64,000 bases of DNA from Siphonodentalium dalli (taxonomy: Eukaryota; Mollusca; Scaphopoda; Gadilida; Siphonodentaliidae), in contig CP136063.1 in the NCBI GenBank assembly GCA_032622095.1, positions 119,680,723-119,744,722 on the forward strand, written 5' to 3'. The notes under the pieces were generated by a model. That model saw nothing but the letters and a program-made list of their open reading frames with translations, ran no database searches and was not told where the DNA came from. Position numbers and translations under genes: made by a program. Positions 10,187 through 52,802 of the stretch are shown here, in pieces (position 1 is the first letter of the stretch; each line of letters starts with the position of its first letter).

Positions 10187-12691
10187 ATGAAAGAAGCTTC
10201 TCGCAGCGATATAAATAGCGTGTGCAGGGAGATAACTGCACTTTTATTGGACACCGATGGAGCGACATGTGGTGTGCGCCGAAGTGGCAAACAAAAGGAT
10301 AAAACTCACCGAATTGATAAGACGTGGTTTGACGACGAATGCAAAGAGAAACGCATAAATTTCAATAGGTGCAAGTCCGAATACAATCGAAGTCAAACTG
10401 AGCTCAATAAAGTACGTTTAAAAGAATCAGCTGTTGTATATAGAACAACTATGGATACAAAAATTAATTGTGATCGTAAAACAAATATTAACGAGCTCAG
10501 AAATTTGCGCAATACTTCAAGTAAAGATTTTTGGCAAAAACTTAACAATCTTGTTCATACTAATGAACCAAGAAGGGATAACGGAAGCGACATTATTAGC
10601 TCGAATATGAATTCCTTCTATGAGCATTTCAAAACGCTAAACGAAGGAAATAATGACAATGTTAACCTCGACAATGAATTTAACGATATATACGATGAGT
10701 CGGATGGCAGTGACCTTAACGCTGAAATTACAAGGGGCGAGATAAGAGCAGCTATATCCAGACTGAAAAATAATAAAGCACCCGGTATAGACCAACTGTA
10801 TAATGAATATATCAAATCGTCGGAGGACGAGATGATCGACGTGTATTTCCATTTCTTCAATTTGATATTAGATACGGGCTATTTCCCAGAAGACTGGGCT
10901 ATTGGAAGCATACATCCGATTTACAAGAAAAAGGGTGAGAGACTTGATCCGGAATCATACAGAGGTATTACTCTTTTGAGTTGCCTGGCAAAACTATTCA
11001 CTTCAATACTGAACAATAGACTGACCATATTCTCTGAAAAATTTAAACTCATTAGTAATAACCAGAGTGGTTTTAGGAGGAAATATTCTACAACCGATAA
11101 TATGTTCATACTAAACATTTTGATGGAAATATACCTCGCAAGTGGGAAAAAATTATATTGCACATTTTTTGACTTTAGAAAAGCGTTCGATACAGTTTGG
11201 CGCGATGGACTGTTTTTGAAAATGATCAGAAATGGTATCAATGGGAAAATTTTCAGAGTGATTAAAGAATTGTATAGCCAAATAAAAACTTGTGTTAAGA
11301 TTGGCATGACCAAATCAGATTATTTCGAGAGCCATATTGGTCTTTTCCAGGGTGAATTAATGTCACCGTTTTTATTTTCGTTATATATCAACGATTTACA
11401 GGAATTTATTAATGATTGTGCCATAGGCAATTTGAAATACCTTGATGAATTATTCTATACAAATCTAAAGTATTATATAGGCCTTCTATGTTTATTTTAT
11501 GCTGATGATACCAGTCTGTTGACTGAAGACGAAGCTGCAATGCACAGAGCACTTTCAGCGTTTCATGATTATGCAATCGCTTGGGGTCTTCAAGTAAACA
11601 CGCAAAAAACTAAAGTTGTGATATTTTGTAAAAGACAACCCAAGTGCTTACTCGTGTTTGTATATAACGGTATACATATAGATATTGTAAAAGAATTCAT
11701 GTACCTAGGTGTAGAATTCTTTTACAATGGCAGATTTTGTAGGGCAGTCAAAAGAACCAGTAGAGTAGCGACCAAAGCAATGTATGCCCTCTTGAACAAA
11801 ACCAGAAATATGAAGTTCCCAGTAGACCTCATGCTACAGCTGTTTGATGCTATGGTTCTACCAATTTTATTATACAGCAGTGAAATATGGTTTTTTGAGT
11901 CAATGAAAACGGTTGAAGCCGTGCATATCAAGTTCTGCAAAATTTTACTCGGCATGAAATCTAGTACGCCAAATTTCATGGTTTATGGAGAGTTAGGAAG
12001 GCATCCTCTTATAATAGAGGCCAAATGTCGAGCTATTTCTTACTGGTCAAAATTATTATCTGACGAGGGTTCTGAATTGGCCAAAAATATGTACCATATT
12101 ACTTACACGTTATATCAAAACGACAGCAGTTATGAACACAAACTTAGATGGGTCAGATCCATAAAAAGTATATTGCAAAACACTGGTTCTAATTCCAAAT
12201 GGATTGCACAATTACAACTCTCTAAACATGACAGCGCACAATTAAAGCAGATCTTGATCGACCAGTTTCACCAAGAATGGTATGGTAACATGATGTCAAC
12301 ATCCAGGGGTAATTTGTATAACTGTATAACACCCACGTTCGAAATGAAAACGTATTTGATCGAACTACCATCACATTTGAGTGAATCTCTCGTGAAGATA
12401 AGAACTTCTAATCACCGATTAGCCATAGAAAGTGGCCGATGGAAAAAGATACAGAAAGAACAAAGAGTATGTCCCCTTTGTCAATCTGGCCTGGGCGACG
12501 AATATCACCTTATGATTATGTGTAGTTATTTCAATGAATTGCGTAGACAATATATCCCGAAATGTCATTGGGAGATCCCAGACAGGGGGAAGTTTCACAG
12601 ACTTCTCTCCACACAGAATGTGAGCCTTCTGAAATCCGTGTCGATTTTCTTGAATAAAGCATTCAGAGAATTAAGTAAAAGGGTGTTTTAA
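10187..12691 (+). CDS. Non-LTR retrotransposon reverse transcriptase, 834 codons, open, endonuclease missing
   Basis: The frame holds the post-endonuclease linker (KTWFDDECKEKRINFNRCK, about residues 45-63) and a complete RT: KAPGIDQLYNEYIK (~197-210), YRGITLLSCLAKLFTSILNN, GFRRKYSTTDN, FDFRKAFDTVW (~328-338, first catalytic Asp), LFQGELMSPFLFSLYINDL (~386-404), FYADDTSLL (~437-445, catalytic DD), KTKVVIF and FMYLGVEFF. The C-terminus has a CX2CX8HX4C zinc-knuckle-like motif (about 762-779) followed by a DEYHLM-type region, typical of L2/Crack/Daphne-like members of the jockey superfamily. No EN domain is found upstream, and the frame is closed by a TGA at 10,154-10,156, so the copy is 5' truncated; the chosen ATG is only the first Met in the retained frame. 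Absence of stops over 2.5 kb implies a young insertion. Not autonomous as it stands. Confidence 0.9.
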   Translation: MKEASRSDINSVCREITALLLDTDGATCGVRRSGKQKDKTHRIDKTWFDDECKEKRINFNRCKSEYNRSQTELNKVRLKESAVVYRTTMDTKINCDRKTNINELRNLRNTSSKDFWQKLNNLVHTNEPRRDNGSDIISSNMNSFYEHFKTLNEGNNDNVNLDNEFNDIYDESDGSDLNAEITRGEIRAAISRLKNNKAPGIDQLYNEYIKSSEDEMIDVYFHFFNLILDTGYFPEDWAIGSIHPIYKKKGERLDPESYRGITLLSCLAKLFTSILNNRLTIFSEKFKLISNNQSGFRRKYSTTDNMFILNILMEIYLASGKKLYCTFFDFRKAFDTVWRDGLFLKMIRNGINGKIFRVIKELYSQIKTCVKIGMTKSDYFESHIGLFQGELMSPFLFSLYINDLQEFINDCAIGNLKYLDELFYTNLKYYIGLLCLFYADDTSLLTEDEAAMHRALSAFHDYAIAWGLQVNTQKTKVVIFCKRQPKCLLVFVYNGIHIDIVKEFMYLGVEFFYNGRFCRAVKRTSRVATKAMYALLNKTRNMKFPVDLMLQLFDAMVLPILLYSSEIWFFESMKTVEAVHIKFCKILLGMKSSTPNFMVYGELGRHPLIIEAKCRAISYWSKLLSDEGSELAKNMYHITYTLYQNDSSYEHKLRWVRSIKSILQNTGSNSKWIAQLQLSKHDSAQLKQILIDQFHQEWYGNMMSTSRGNLYNCITPTFEMKTYLIELPSHLSESLVKIRTSNHRLAIESGRWKKIQKEQRVCPLCQSGLGDEYHLMIMCSYFNELRRQYIPKCHWEIPDRGKFHRLLSTQNVSLLKSVSIFLNKAFRELSKRVF

Positions 12692-47276: not shown

Positions 47277-48578
47277 TATGTTGAGATATGCTCAGATGCT
47301 AGCTGTGTGTGTAAATATGTTGTATTTTTGTAGCATGTGACCTAATGATGTAATGATTTTGAAAAATGACCTAATTCAATCACAAGATATCTTGTGATCC
47401 AAACACCCCCTTACCCAATATAATTGCTTTAATAGAATCCCTAAAACCCCAGTTGTGGCAAATTATATAATCCCCAACACTAAATATCCTTTAAAAAATA
47501 AGCCTTATTTCATAGCCTAAATTTAGTCATTCAGTAAAGACGTGACTTCAGAATTACACTTGATTACATAATTATATCATATATATTTAACTACAAATTA
47601 CATATAACACCGAAATGTCTCCCTGTTAAACTCGGCGATTTTCAGCAAGCATCCTACCCCAACGTAAGCTACTTTTATAGCTGGATTGCAGTCACTTGAC
47701 ATGCAGTGACATGAGTTCAGTATTATTCTTGATTAGATGGTTATATTAGATACATTGTTTTGCATATTATACATATTTTTATAATATACCACAAAATACC
47801 CCCCCCCCCCCAATAATGTAGATTCTCATGAAATTGAATAGTCTTTGACCCTTTGACATACAATTTGTTTGAATAGTACATTCCTCCAGCGGCTCCACGC
47901 CATGTATGACGCGAGCAGTGCCACCTAATATCTACTTTGGATTTACCTTAAACAGCTATTAAACATTCGACCCTTTTTACTTTGTAATCCCGTCAATCTC
48001 CAAATAAAACAATTCTTATGGTTTTTCATAAATGAAGTCTTCCTTTAAAGTAATCCTGACATAACTTTTGTCCAGAAGAGACACAATATGATCCATAGTA
48101 AATCCAGAATTACGAATGATACATTAAACTCCACATCTTATTTTGACACATTCTGAGTCAGCACAGACGGAAAGCACAATGAATAACCTGACTTTTGGCC
48201 TAATTATTGGTGTCACACGAATACAGTTAACAATAATCACCCATCTCTACTAAGTGTTAATAATTGTTGGAATTTGCCCATTTATCGATCGGTTTGACGA
48301 GTATCTAAATATAGCGGACTGGCTGAAGCCAACTATATGCTCAAAACGTCCAGATTTAACAAATGTGCTATCATTTTCTCCATGAACAGTTTCATTTTAT
48401 TCAAGCCTTGAAAGGCACTCTGGATTACATATAATATAACGTAGAATATACCACACTTTCAAACAGGGTGCTGATATTGACCCCGTCTTAATTGGTAATT
48501 CATCCTATGTAGTTTGTTCTGCCTGGAGCACCACTTCACATGACTAAAATAGATAATATAATAATTACTCAATAAATC
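47277..48578. other. Unassigned stretch
   Basis: No ORF of interest; a 12-C run near 47,802-47,813. Nothing resembles an endonuclease upstream of the following RT. Confidence 0.4.
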
Positions 48579-50597
48579 TTGGAGAAAGCTGACTGGTCAG
48601 CGTTCAGGGAAGATATCCGTATCCATCTGAACACTGAACTTTCACTCTCTTGCATATCAGAAATCGATGGTGCTAGTGAACATCTGATGCAGTCTATCCA
48701 GTCGGCCCTGGATAGGGCATGCCCAAAAAAGCTGACTAAATGTGGAGCACCGAGGGTGACTAAGGAAACGCTCGACCTCATCAAGCAGAAGCGCCATGTG
48801 TTTCGGATGTGGCAAAAGCACAGAACACCGACCCTGTTGACGTGGTACAACACCCTAAACCGAAAGGTGAAGGAACGGGTCAAGTCGGACCGCAAACAAG
48901 CGTGGGAAAATGTCACCTCTGAACTCAACACAAACGATCGGAACAACGGACGTGAGTTCTGGTCAAAGCTCAAAACTCTGACTGGCACCTCAAAAAATCC
49001 CAGCAATGGGAACGTTGAGAATCCGGTGTATCGTATTGACGGTACGTTAACTTCCTCCACAAAGGAAAAAGCGGACGCTTTTTCAGACGCACTCAGTCGA
49101 GCCCACCAAGTTCAAATTGGCCCTCAATTTGACGACGACTGGAAACTGGAAGTTGACAACCTAGTCAGTCTGAATGAGGACTTATTCAAACCTCAGGAAA
49201 ACGTGAGTGATGAGGTGGGGGACGACCACGATCTCACTAGAGAGATCACTTCGGAAGAAACCATCGGGATTCTCTCCAAGTGCAAGTCTAGATCGGCCGC
49301 TGGCCACGATGGAATTCCTTACAGGGTACTCAAAGAAGCACCAGCCGAACTCTTCTCTTACATTACCAAGCTGTATAACACATGCATGAAGATTGGCTAC
49401 TTTCCAGTTGCATGGAAAGAGGCAATCGGCATCATGATACCAAAAAATGGCAAAGATCTGAAATACCCTGGCAACTACAGACCAATCAGTCTTCTTAGCT
49501 GCATCGGCAAGCTATTCGAAGCAATCATTGCATCACGGTTCCGAAACCATCTGGAGAAGAATTTATTCTTCAACAAATGGCAGAGGGCATATCGAAACGG
49601 ATGCGAAGGAGTAGAACACATCTACCGCCTTGTGGAGGACATACGCAGTGGCTTCCACAAAAACTGGGTAACTGGTACAGTGCTACTTGACGTTGAAAAG
49701 GCGTTCGACAGCGTCTGGCACAACGGCCTCCGGTACAAGTTACACAAGTATGGCCTCCCGGTCAAACTTGTAAGGCTCCTCTCCTCTTTCCTCACCGACC
49801 GCTCAATAAAGGTGAGGGTGGACAGAGAATCGTCGGACTCTGTTCCACTGAACGCTGGTACACCACACGGGTCGGTTTTAAGCCCACTGCTCTATATTTT
49901 CTACGTCAATGACATTGAAATAGACCCGAGGCACCAAGTGCAACTGTCGCAGTTCGCTGATGACTTGGGTCTGTGGATCACCAATGGCAGTACAAAGTAT
50001 GTGGAGCTCAGACTGAGGCGGGCCCTCGGTGACCTGGAAAGGTGGTGCTCGAAATGGCGCATTAAGCTCAATGCAAACAAAACACAATTCGCCATATTCA
50101 CGAAACGAAAACGCAATTCGGTGGTCAAACTGAATGTCAGTGGCATTGACTTAGTTGCCGCAAAAGAGGTGACCTTCCTAGGCGTCACCTTGGACTCCAG
50201 ACTCACCATGCTAACCCATGTTAAGCAGACAGCCACGAGGACCATGCAACGAGTTAATCTTCTCAGACGGCTGAGGGGAACTTCCTGGGGAGCTAGCATG
50301 GCCACTCTGCTTAGAGTCTTCAAAACGTTTGTAAGACCTATCATGGAATACGCATCGGTGGTCACCAACCTGGCATCATATCGAGCGATCCAAATGCTCC
50401 AGGTGGTCCAAAACAAAGCCCTGAGAATGGCACTGCAAGCACCGTATCACACCCGTATTGTAGATCTGCATACCATCGCTGACGTGGAACCCATCAGAGA
50501 GCGCCTGCGCGATCTGGCGGAAAGTACACTGGCGAGAATGGACGGCAGTGACATCATGAGGGAATGTTTACAGCGCAAACAACTTCTCTGTGGCTGA
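48579..50597 (+). CDS. Jockey-superfamily LINE reverse transcriptase, 672 codons, endonuclease missing
   Basis: The retained frame starts in the linker after the endonuclease (EKADWSAFREDIRIHL); the TTG at the left end is simply where the frame opens, so the copy is 5' truncated. RT blocks in order: KSRSAAGHDGIPYRVLKE (~235-252), NYRPISLLSCIGKLFEAII, LLDVEKAFDSVWHNGLRYKL (~368-387, catalytic Asp), LNAGTPHGSVLSPLLYIFYV (~424-443), QFADDLGLW (~457-465, catalytic DD), LNANKTQFAIFTKR, EVTFLGVTLDSRLT, and a thumb with QVVQNKALRMALQAPYHTRI. The C-terminus is short, without a CCHC knuckle. Codons are noticeably more GC-rich than the neighbouring LINE ORFs. No stops or frameshifts, so the insertion is young. 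The TGA at 50,595-50,597 runs straight into the hairpin array. Confidence 0.9.
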   Translation: MEKADWSAFREDIRIHLNTELSLSCISEIDGASEHLMQSIQSALDRACPKKLTKCGAPRVTKETLDLIKQKRHVFRMWQKHRTPTLLTWYNTLNRKVKERVKSDRKQAWENVTSELNTNDRNNGREFWSKLKTLTGTSKNPSNGNVENPVYRIDGTLTSSTKEKADAFSDALSRAHQVQIGPQFDDDWKLEVDNLVSLNEDLFKPQENVSDEVGDDHDLTREITSEETIGILSKCKSRSAAGHDGIPYRVLKEAPAELFSYITKLYNTCMKIGYFPVAWKEAIGIMIPKNGKDLKYPGNYRPISLLSCIGKLFEAIIASRFRNHLEKNLFFNKWQRAYRNGCEGVEHIYRLVEDIRSGFHKNWVTGTVLLDVEKAFDSVWHNGLRYKLHKYGLPVKLVRLLSSFLTDRSIKVRVDRESSDSVPLNAGTPHGSVLSPLLYIFYVNDIEIDPRHQVQLSQFADDLGLWITNGSTKYVELRLRRALGDLERWCSKWRIKLNANKTQFAIFTKRKRNSVVKLNVSGIDLVAAKEVTFLGVTLDSRLTMLTHVKQTATRTMQRVNLLRRLRGTSWGASMATLLRVFKTFVRPIMEYASVVTNLASYRAIQMLQVVQNKALRMALQAPYHTRIVDLHTIADVEPIRERLRDLAESTLARMDGSDIMRECLQRKQLLCG

Positions 50598-50892
50598 AAA
50601 GACCCGCAGTTCAATAGGCTTATTGGACCGTCCCGGGTTTTAGGATACGCAGTCAAGCAGGCCATGCTAGACCGTCCCGTATCCCACTTCCGAAAAGACC
50701 CGCAGTCCAATAAGGTGTATTGGACCGTCCCGGGCGGTAACAGAAGAGAGCACGCAGTCCAGTGGAATCACTGGACCGTCCCGTACTCTCTTAGCAGCCC
50801 GCAATCCAATGCCTCCATTGGAAGGTCCCGGGCATGGACAACCAACTGAAAATGCGCAATCCAGCATCATCGCTGGATCGTCCCGCATTTTG
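50597..50892 (+). other. Array of six covarying two-stem hairpins in the LINE 3' UTR
   Basis: Inner-stem spans with outer-stem spans in brackets: 609-616/621-628 [602-606/634-638]; 652-659/665-672 with one A.A [643-649/678-684]; 705-712/718-725 [699-702/731-734]; 757-764/769-776 [744-754/782-792, one mismatch]; 805-811/816-822 [797-801/829-833]; 859-865/872-878 [849-856/884-891], all plus 50,000. Between the stems the 5' side is always CA and the 3' side CGTCC (GGTCC in unit 5). The inner stem changes (CCAATA, CAAGCA, CCAGTG, CCAATG, CCAGC) with complementary changes opposite. The outer stem also changes (ACCCG, GGATACG, GAGAGCACG, GCCCG, AAAATGCG) and stays paired. Terminal loops of 4-6 nt vary freely. 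Units are 44-55 nt apart. Confidence 0.85.
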
Positions 50893-51190
50893 CAAGATGC
50901 CGAGACCAGGCAAAGAAAAAGAAAAAGAACAAGATCAAGGCAAAAGTACAAGGCAAAGCCCAAGCAAAGATGGAAGATTCAAGACAAGACAAGATTCAAG
51001 ACACCTGCGACGCTGACCGATCCCGACCTCAAGACTTCTCCACCCGATCCGCGGCCTGACTGTCAAGAGAAAAGACCAAGAAAATTCAAGACAGGGCGTA
51101 AGGGCGACCTCCGGGTGAGCTCACACCGTCCTCGTGCCGCCCTTCGGGCGGGCACGCAAATCCTGTTCCTGCTACTCAATAAATATATGT
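50893..51190 (+). other. Distal 3' UTR of the LINE with GC-rich stem-loop and AATAAA
   Basis: A purine-rich GAAAAAGAAAAAGAAC tract, then a GC-rich end: GTGAGCTCAC palindrome at 51,115-51,124, a stem-loop GTGCCGCCCTTCGGGCGGGC plus AC at 51,134-51,155, and CTCAATAAATATATG at 51,175-51,189, the probable 3' end and poly(A) signal. LINE RTs often recognise such a terminal stem-loop. The long frame that spans this area is not a gene. Confidence 0.5.
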
Positions 51191-51677
51191 ATGTGCTGAC
51201 TCGTGTAGGTATTGTGGTCAGGATATATCATGGTATAAATAATTATGTTTTCATAACAGGTAATCAGAATCTTTTTCACTACACTTTAATGTCTTCGTGT
51301 ATATGTATGTTGCCTCAGACACCCCCCCCCCCCCCCTTTATTATTATTATTATTATTTTTTTTTTTTTTTTTTTATTTTTTTTTTTTTTTTTCCCGGGGT
51401 TCTGGCAAGCCAATTGCCCTAACCTATATTATATATTGCCACCACTGGGCGGTCAGTGTTGTCCATACAAGCTGACAACAACCTTCAACCGGTATGTATT
51501 TGTCTTTGTTTTTGCTATTTCTGTACTCTACCTTTGTTATGCATGTGTCTCTTTTCTTAGTGCGAATGATTGTGACATCAAAATGTACCATAATGTTATA
51601 TGCATATATGTACCGTATACATTACCAAATAGTACACATTTCTGGTTCGGCAGCTAGGGCGTCCGCATATAATATCA
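51191..51677. repeat. Spacer with C-, ATT- and T-runs
   Basis: A C run (51,320-51,336), ATT repeats and a ~45-nt T-rich run (51,337-51,391). 51,440-51,480 may be the 5' UTR of the following ORF2. Confidence 0.7.
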
Positions 51678-52802
51678 ATGAGTACTATTAAAATTTTGTC
51701 TCTGAACTGCCGTGGACTTAACCAAGCCGAGAAACGCCGAGACGTCTTTCACCACATTCGTAACATGGAGGGCTCGATATATTGCTTGCAAGACACACAT
51801 TTCACTAAACACATGGAAAGATGTATTGAAACAGAATGGGGATGCAAAGCGATAATGTCATCTTATACTTCCCAGGCTAGAGGTGTAGCTATTCTATTTA
51901 GAAATAACTTTGAATATAGTATCCACGAAACACATAAAGATTCTGGTGGAAATTTTATTATACTCGACATAACCATAGAAAATATACGTTTAAGTTTGGT
52001 GAACTTGTATGGGCCAAATGAAGATAATCCAGCATTTTACTCTAACCTAAAAAAATTAATTACCCAGATTGGGAACACGCAAATAATCATGTGTGGAGAC
52101 TGGAATCTGGTACAGAAACAAGACTTAGACACTTATAACTACAAACATTTAAACAACCCCCACGCCCAAAATGAAGTTGCGGACCTCTCCGGCAGCCTCG
52201 AACTAGTTGACGTGTGGAGATTATTTAACAAACAAGAAAGACGATATACGTGGAGAAGAAAATCCCCAGTTAAAATGGCGAGGCTAGATTATTTTTTAAT
52301 TTCGGAGGACCTCCTTAATCTAGTGGGAAAAGGACCGACAATTTTACCCGGATACAAAACAGATCATTCTATTATTTCACTCCCATTAAACGTCAGTGAC
52401 ATCAAGACTGGTCCAGGTTTTTGGAAATTTAATAATTCTCTGTTATACTGTAGAGAATATGTCGATTTAGTAAAAGGAATCATAGCTGAAAACAAAATAA
52501 GATATTCTTACTCCTCAAAAGAGGAAAAAAGCATTATAAATTGCTCCATTGGAAAACGACTATTTCTCGACGCAGTGTTGCTTGATATCAGAGGCGCTAC
52601 TATACGATTTTCTGCAAATCGAAAACGTGAGCGAATAAAAATTGAGAAAAATCTAACATTAAAAAAGGCAAAAATTATTTCTGATCTTGAGCATCCATCA
52701 TATAGCTCTGAAGAAAAGCCAAAAATAATGGAAGACTTAGAAAAACTAGAAGTCGAAACGGAAGCAATGCGAAGAGAAAACTATCCGCGGAACCATGGTT
52801 AG
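51678..52802 (+). pseudogene. L1/Tx1-like ORF2: AP-like endonuclease portion, frame broken at its end
   Basis: Starts ATG AGT ACT; the endonuclease blocks are all present: LSLNCRGLNQAEKR (~8-21), CLQDTHF (catalytic region, ~36-42), GVAILF, LVNLYGPNEDN (~106-116), MCGDWNLV (Asp/Asn pair, ~138-145), RLDYFLIS (~202-209) and TDHS (~229-232; SDH in most relatives). Order and spacing are those of L1-superfamily endonucleases, which nick target DNA for target-primed reverse transcription. The frame ends at 52,802 after MRREN, where a shift leads to GTMVRSRAKWIEEGEKP (a conserved Tx1/L1 linker) in another frame. Confidence 0.85.

Follow-up and report, generated by a model that had tools for sequence, protein, structure and literature searches.

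The LINE copy and its open reading frames

The window analysed here, a stretch of 64,000 nucleotides from the genome of Siphonodentalium dalli, carries a 5′-truncated LINE copy flanked by a 12-bp target-site duplication (verified for the window copy only). The features of this locus are as follows:

48566..48577, + strand: target-site duplication, 5′ copy TACTCAATAAAT, identical to 51173-51184
48578..51172, + strand: 5′-truncated LINE copy
48579..50597, + strand: ORF2, 3′ portion of 672 codons with RT and C-terminus (RVT_1, E=1.8e-36)
50600..50640, + strand: hairpin unit 1, type B
50643..50684, + strand: hairpin unit 2, type A
50696..50737, + strand: hairpin unit 3, type B
50748..50788, + strand: hairpin unit 4, type A, with one C-A mismatch in the outer stem
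50795..50835, + strand: hairpin unit 5, type B, right loop GGTCC
50850..50890, + strand: hairpin unit 6, type A
50891..51090, + strand: A/CAAG-rich spacer, its length varying among copies (from the copy alignment)
51133..51156, + strand: terminal stem-loop CGTGCCGCCC-TTCG-GGCGGGCACG, candidate 3′ tail for RT recognition
51173..51184, + strand: target-site duplication, 3′ copy TACTCAATAAAT

BLAST of the element against 28 partly overlapping genome loci (L002 to L029) revealed variable 5′ ends and a common 3′ end among the copies, with matches to loci other than the window's own copy (L002) stopping at 51172-51180, mostly at 51172-51174. Seven of 30 BLAST rows began exactly at 48578, the first base past the 5′ target-site duplication. 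At the common end the LINE terminates in ...CCTGC, without poly(A). The insertions are scattered, with 40 copies spread over the nine contigs of the 2.23 Gb genome searched.

The 672-codon frame of the window had been described in the earlier note as an RT, and it does contain the RT domain; it is, more precisely, the 3′ portion of an EN-RT ORF2 that measures 911 codons in the full-length copy L026. Full-length copies are ca. 5.5 kb, and in L026 a 688-codon open frame (ORF1) overlaps ORF2, in which endonuclease domains (Exo_endo_phos PF03372, E=1.2e-16, and PF14529, E=1.1e-19) are followed by RVT_1 (E=5e-37). The closest solved structures were those of an RNA-directed DNA polymerase (8c8j) and of L1 ORF2. 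Judging from these frames and domain matches, the element appears to be a two-ORF LINE with an Exo_endo_phos (APE-type) endonuclease, which we take to resemble the Jockey superfamily. ORF1 yielded a zf-CCHC_6 match in Pfam that fell below the cut-off (E=0.019), and weak CCHC matches to HIV-1 Gag/nucleocapsid chains (E=0.12-0.55).

The 5′ ends of L014, L023 and L024 differ by 17-20% from that of L026, while their ORF2-3′UTR parts agree at ca. 97-99%, so that these copies would seem to represent mosaic subfamilies with exchanged 5′ halves. At window positions 49861-49885 the RT reads TPHGSVL, as opposed to TPQGSVL in L026; the window copy is, in addition, 5′-truncated.

Six hairpins of one design follow the ORF2 stop codon

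Directly past the ORF2 stop codon (TGA, 50595-50597) lie the six hairpin units at 50600-50890, each consisting of an outer stem, a CA/CGTCC internal loop and an inner stem. Unit 1 begins 3 nt downstream of the stop codon, and the start-to-start spacing of successive units is 43, 53, 52, 47 and 55. The left loop reads CA in all six units and the right loop CGTCC in five (GGTCC in unit 5), which bears out the six tandem hairpins that the earlier note had reported behind the RT.

When types were assigned with a simple letter rule, the units alternated B-A-B-A-B-A, type B having the outer stem ACCCG/CGGGT and type A the outer stem GAATACG/CGTATTC. The array is thus a triplicated dimer (three B-A dimers), and part of the covariation within it reflects an old duplication. 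The outer stems, earlier thought to be almost unrelated, therefore largely come down to two ancestral types with later drift. The left and right arms of the window units pair with their own partners beyond what re-pairing gives: own arms form 41 pairs at variable positions, whereas combining the arms in all 720 ways yields 30.7 on average, and 4 of the 720 (the identity among them) reach 41.

The array is retained in other copies of the LINE

Searching the genome with a 601-base query yielded at least 40 copies, counting that of the window, with identities of 95-100% (a lower bound, as 40 of 198 candidates were scored). An alignment took 26 of these 40, the window among them, and 24 of the 25 other aligned copies keep six intact, gap-free units (25 of 26 with the window), meaning that other copies of the LINE retain the array, as the earlier note had proposed to check. 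The exception, L020, has lost the loop letters of unit 2 together with part of its inner stem.

The pattern CGCARTCCA-N(3-20)-TGGAYCGTCCCG had 287 exact matches in the 2.23 Gb genome and its reversal had none, indicating that the array motif occurs beyond chance. Thirty cut-out loci, all from one contig, stand for these 287 matches: 29 have the flanks of this very LINE, and the thirtieth (L051) is a diverged array. Via L051, ten diverged places were reached (not counting the near-duplicate L069), each with 2-10 units when the motif rule is applied. These loci were fetched for their resemblance to the array, and their having units is not independent evidence. The BABABA order is found in the window and in L032, L058, L060 and L061, while most others alternate in part and L066, L067, L073 and L074 do so least. 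L066 also has, at 840-1150, a tandem run of 57-nt repeats that combine a left arm of type B with a right arm of type A, which could stem from slippage inside the array. Many matches to the L051 query are confined to its initial 59 bases, which precede the array, and belong to another tandem repeat (G000:C4:242519379-242519953 and C1:251325270-251326140).

In the viral contig collection the hairpin pattern matched one contig (L001), once and without an array; L001 looks phage-like by its ORFs, and we take this match as chance. For ORF2, 37 stretches in the viral and 25 in the genome contig collection matched a peptide pattern, and none of them proved a relative by tblastn. With the genome, viral and genome contig collections searched, the family was found in one genome only, so that its conservation is testable within that genome.

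Hairpins of the same design lie near the 5′ end, within the open frame of ORF1

Scanning both strands of full-length copies revealed three to four further hairpins built in this way close to the 5′ end, all in the orientation of the 3′ array: three each in L014, L023 and L026, and four in L024. Under a stricter letter rule, two each were left in L014, L023 and L026. These units lie outside the window, at the following positions from the unit scan:

L026, 892-1085: 5′ units
L014 (reverse complement), 1093-1289: 5′ units
L024 (reverse complement), 477-763: 5′ units

The first ATG of the ORF1 frame in L026, at 800, is upstream of its units, which would place the 5′ units within the first ca. 100 codons of ORF1 and make them coding if this ATG is the start. 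The three 5′ units of L026 share one codon phase. A genome search with the 5′ region, in which all 29 candidates were scored, gave 16 stretches that were aligned with the 4 copies, and the fourth 5′ unit is present in 6 of these 20. Just upstream of the first 5′ unit is a further long hairpin (TGACATC...GATGTCA in L014), one pair of which reads T-A in L014, A-T in L026, C-G in L076 and T-G in L081, but is broken (C/A) in L077 and deleted in L080.

The stems covary between units

In an alignment of 10 5′ units with the 6 window units, the GCA and GTCCC columns are invariant. Of the stem cells in this alignment, whose 5′ units come from a scan that also scores pairing, 90.2% were paired, against 71.5% after shuffling and 22.8-37.1% after sliding. 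Both sides had changed at 11 of 14 pairs (shuffled, 9.3, with 67 of 500 shuffles reaching 11), and cells with double-sided change numbered 59 against 23.3. Another alignment, of 47 units hand-picked from a set chosen partly on pairing, has an inflated value of 86.1% and was not used as evidence.

We then compared own with swapped partners in 94 3′ units from 18 loci, picked by conserved motif letters only (L069, a near-duplicate of L067, L059, which is like L063, and L065, with flank only, being omitted). Own-partner pairing was 3.56 against 2.78 when swapped in outer stems (sd 0.10) and 2.44 against 2.10 in inner stems (sd 0.04). Within types, the pairing of A outer, A inner and B inner stems exceeded all 2000 swaps, but B-type outer stems showed neither own-partner preference nor covariation among themselves (1591 of 2000 swaps reached the observed value). 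Exchange pairing between units was accordingly discarded as a candidate, own arms fitting better than swapped ones in all stems but the B-type outer ones.

In a tree-based null, the substitutions of each column were placed at random, their number kept, on a tree built with FastTree from 119 distinct units, 26 of which are 5′ units that follow the alignment columns of the pairing-scored scan units. Since the motif letters include TCCA and TGGA, which pair with each other, this test was repeated on the 8 pairs outside them. Over all 15 pairs, none of 300 randomisations reached the observed paired cells (81.6% vs. 55.6%, maximum 66.7%), double-change cells (285 vs. 80, maximum 174) or covariation score (0.428 vs. 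0.161), and 2 of 300 reached the observed count of 15 doubly changed pairs. The 8 variable pairs gave the same picture, with 75.4% paired cells (vs. 43.6%, maximum 62.4%), 231 double-change cells (vs. 51, maximum 127) and a covariation score of 0.535 (vs. 0.127, maximum 0.291), each reached in 0 of 300; the count of pairs with any double change (8) was uninformative here, being reached in 133 of 300.

The statement that simple tandem duplication is insufficient to explain the array consequently holds in part: stem compensation exceeds the tree null, while the triplicated B-A dimer and the B-type outer stems without covariation weigh against it.

Between orthologous copies the signal is more modest. 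Among 12 orthologous 3′ arrays (16 minus the truncated L044, L059 and L063, and L057, the same copy as L058), 53 of 90 pairs vary, of which 12 are paired in every variant and 41 have at least one unpaired variant, with a double change at only 5. Decay after insertion would give such a pattern, and compensation is weaker here than from unit to unit. As such, the compensatory stem change named as a test in the earlier note is clear between units but modest between copies. Orthologous 5′ units, compared over the gap-free rows of the 20 only (H1 15, H2 18, H3 19 and the extra unit 6), had double changes at 5 of 60 pairs, barely above slid controls (3, 0, 0 and 3), with 360 of 420 cells paired against 110-148 when slid.

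The internal loop is the slowest part of the 3′ array

Across 12 sequences, the internal loop of the 3′ array was the slowest class, with 0.020 difference per sequence pair, followed by outer stems (0.108), inner stems (0.121), linkers (0.133) and apical loops (0.233). The 30 bases past the array differed by 0.229, and the final 37 bases of ORF2, including its stop, by 0.035, i.e. nearly as slow as the internal loop. Pairwise differences among the 26 young copies were 0.010 in the array, 0.029 in the A-rich spacer and 0.026 in the last 82 bases.

In the 5′ array, where the rate comparison covers 18 sequences and omits the partial L090 and L091, the loop differed by 0.032 overall and by 0.075 at second codon positions. 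Its third codon positions (6 columns) differed by 0.000, whereas those in the rest of the ORF1 N-terminus differed by 0.148. A reason at the protein level would not protect third positions, and their constancy in the loop within ORF1 therefore places the constraint on the RNA. Folding energies of 110-nt windows over the arrays (z of -1.8 to -4.0, with an element average of -1.2) agree with structure but are not unusual alone, as other ORF1 windows reach a z of -3.7. The earlier claim that structure is maintained is supported by the other copies, the diverged copies, the 5′ units and the tree-based null.

A separate stem-loop sits at the very 3′ end

The terminal stem-loop at 51133-51156 is identical in 21 of the 26 young copies, has one change in 4 and is replaced in L011. 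Among the 16 diverged loci it is recognisable in 8 (L032, L060, L061, L062, L064, L070, L071 and L072) and partial in L067, and was not seen in the remaining 7. With no poly(A) and a conserved 3′-terminal stem-loop, the LINE appears by its sequence traits to be of the stringent type, a type to which eel UnaL2, with its 3′ tail stem-loop, also belongs. For recognition of the 3′ end by the RT, this stem-loop is probably a better candidate than the array. We accordingly demoted the array as the 3′ recognition element of the RT, a function put forward in the earlier note that is now less likely given this different stem-loop at the very 3′ end.

A possible role as repeated protein-binding sites

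The analysis shows the motif and its positions, its conservation, the compensatory stems and the constraint at the RNA level. An asymmetric loop that stays fixed while its stems are exchangeable, and that recurs many times towards both ends, is in turn what one would expect of repeated binding sites, the loop presumably being read by a protein that the element itself encodes, most likely ORF1p. We give roughly an even chance to the hairpins being multivalent cis-acting sites at both RNA ends that are bound by an element-encoded protein, with ORF1p as the likeliest reader because of the weak CCHC zinc-knuckle matches of ORF1. R2 offers a precedent, in that one protein contacts both ends of its RNA (PMC6895275, PMC4117753). 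The suggestion of a repeated protein-binding site or packaging signal had already been made from the 3′ array, and it is strengthened by the like hairpins at the 5′ end, outside the window.

In each unit, two exchangeable stems frame the same asymmetric internal loop (5′ G-CA, 3′ NGUCC-C), and the six units past ORF2 together with the three or four in 5′ ORF1 place this site in several copies at both RNA ends. Repeated binding of ORF1p at both ends could then nucleate an RNP and favour the element's own RNA; as the 5′ sites belong to the ORF1 coding sequence itself, such binding might also move the RNA out of translation and into assembly. Reverse transcription would instead begin from the terminal stem-loop. 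More speculatively, and with somewhat less confidence than in the binding sites as such, the single internal-loop hairpin might constitute a packaging code, in which specific recognition by ORF1p couples a translation-to-assembly switch with cis-preference. If true, this would be a multivalent packaging code that is repeated at both RNA ends and overlaps the ORF1 coding sequence.

Among possible readers, ORF1p comes first, a host factor second and ORF2p third, as the start of reverse transcription is better served by the terminal stem-loop. A host RNA-binding protein might bind the units to export, stabilise or localise the LINE RNA, multiple copies raising avidity, and we regard this as a possible though rather unlikely reading. 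The multiplicity of the units and their position near both RNA ends suit an export or stability element, the loop resembles a protein site, and such a protein would leave the same footprint as an element-encoded reader; however, a motif read by the host sits uneasily with 29 of the 30 cut-out loci carrying the flanks of this LINE and the thirtieth being a diverged array.

It is less probable still that the RT (ORF2p) itself reads the units and thereby coordinates the two halves of integration, as the R2 protein does. The R2 protein is reported to bind RNA structures at the 5′ and the 3′ side, mutating one region weakening both (PMC6895275, PMC4117753), and ORF2 of zebrafish L2 to bind a 3′ stem-loop via the region between EN and RT (PMC4176376). 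However, this LINE has its separate stem-loop at the very 3′ end, and nine or ten sites exceed the needs of one or two protein subunits.

An array without function, i.e. a palindromic DNA segment that was tandemly duplicated and then inherited by the copies, would fit the three B-A dimers and the local run of hybrid 57-nt repeats in L066, but it is very improbable in view of the constant and slowly evolving loop, the stem compensation beyond the tree null and the third-position constancy of the ORF1-coding units. We give hardly any credence to each unit being a self-cleaving lantern (twister-sister-like) ribozyme that cuts at CA: LINE-1-rbz likewise has a stem on either side of an asymmetric, CA-containing internal loop, yet the published loop measures 5 and 6 nt and its partners are defined (PMC11620745), against 2 and 5 nt here, Rfam had no ribozyme match in the 3′ or 5′ region, and the RNA of the element would not survive cleavage at nine places. 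Equally far-fetched is a hairpin past the UGA that promotes stop-codon readthrough, which was rejected: the window frame is open for 83 codons beyond the stop, but only 2 of 12 arrays keep the frame and the other ten stop after 14-41 codons.

Relation to known systems

Rfam returned one chance-level match in the 3′ region (bip IRES, on the opposite strand, E=4) and none in the 5′ region. Among the best full-text matches in PMC, which covers neither Repbase nor the bulk of the subscription literature, no LINE was found that bears repeated hairpins at each of its ends.

It has long been asked how the proteins of a LINE select their own RNA (cis-preference). Structured elements such as the retroviral psi mark RNAs for packaging. 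HBV epsilon, too, is a structured element marking RNA for packaging; a structured RNA marked for packaging is also the candidate role here, in a different class of element. Among the closest systems is R2, whose protein recognises RNA structures near both RNA ends (PMC6895275). Structures near both ends are present in this LINE RNA as well, as candidate protein-binding sites. However, R2 has one protein-binding motif (PBM) per end, whereas this LINE has one small hairpin repeated 6 plus 3-4 times, with putative protein binding, and R2 combines a PD-(D/E)XK endonuclease with a 28S rDNA target (PMC6895275), as opposed to the Exo_endo_phos-type endonuclease and scattered insertions found here.

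ZfL2 likewise has a stem-loop near the 3′ end of its RNA (PMC4176376). Compared with the stringent-type 3′ tails of ZfL2 and UnaL2, the array lies upstream, is multi-copy and has 5′ counterparts, and the stem-loop at 51133-51156 fits such a tail better. With lantern ribozymes the units share the succession of stem, CA-containing internal loop and stem, but loop sizes and partners differ.

A short, repeated and covarying hairpin with an invariant loop near both ends provides a defined candidate RNA ligand for ORF1p and ORF2p of the same element, as well as a case of a coding region and an RNA signal using the same letters.

Two further LINE fragments are present in the window, at 51678-52802 (an Exo_endo_phos-like ORF) and at 10187-12691 (an 834-aa RT ORF), and the unit scan detected no hairpin unit near either of them. 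Tracts of poly-C, TTA and poly-T occupy positions 51322-51392, which separate the end of the LINE described here from the endonuclease ORF that follows.
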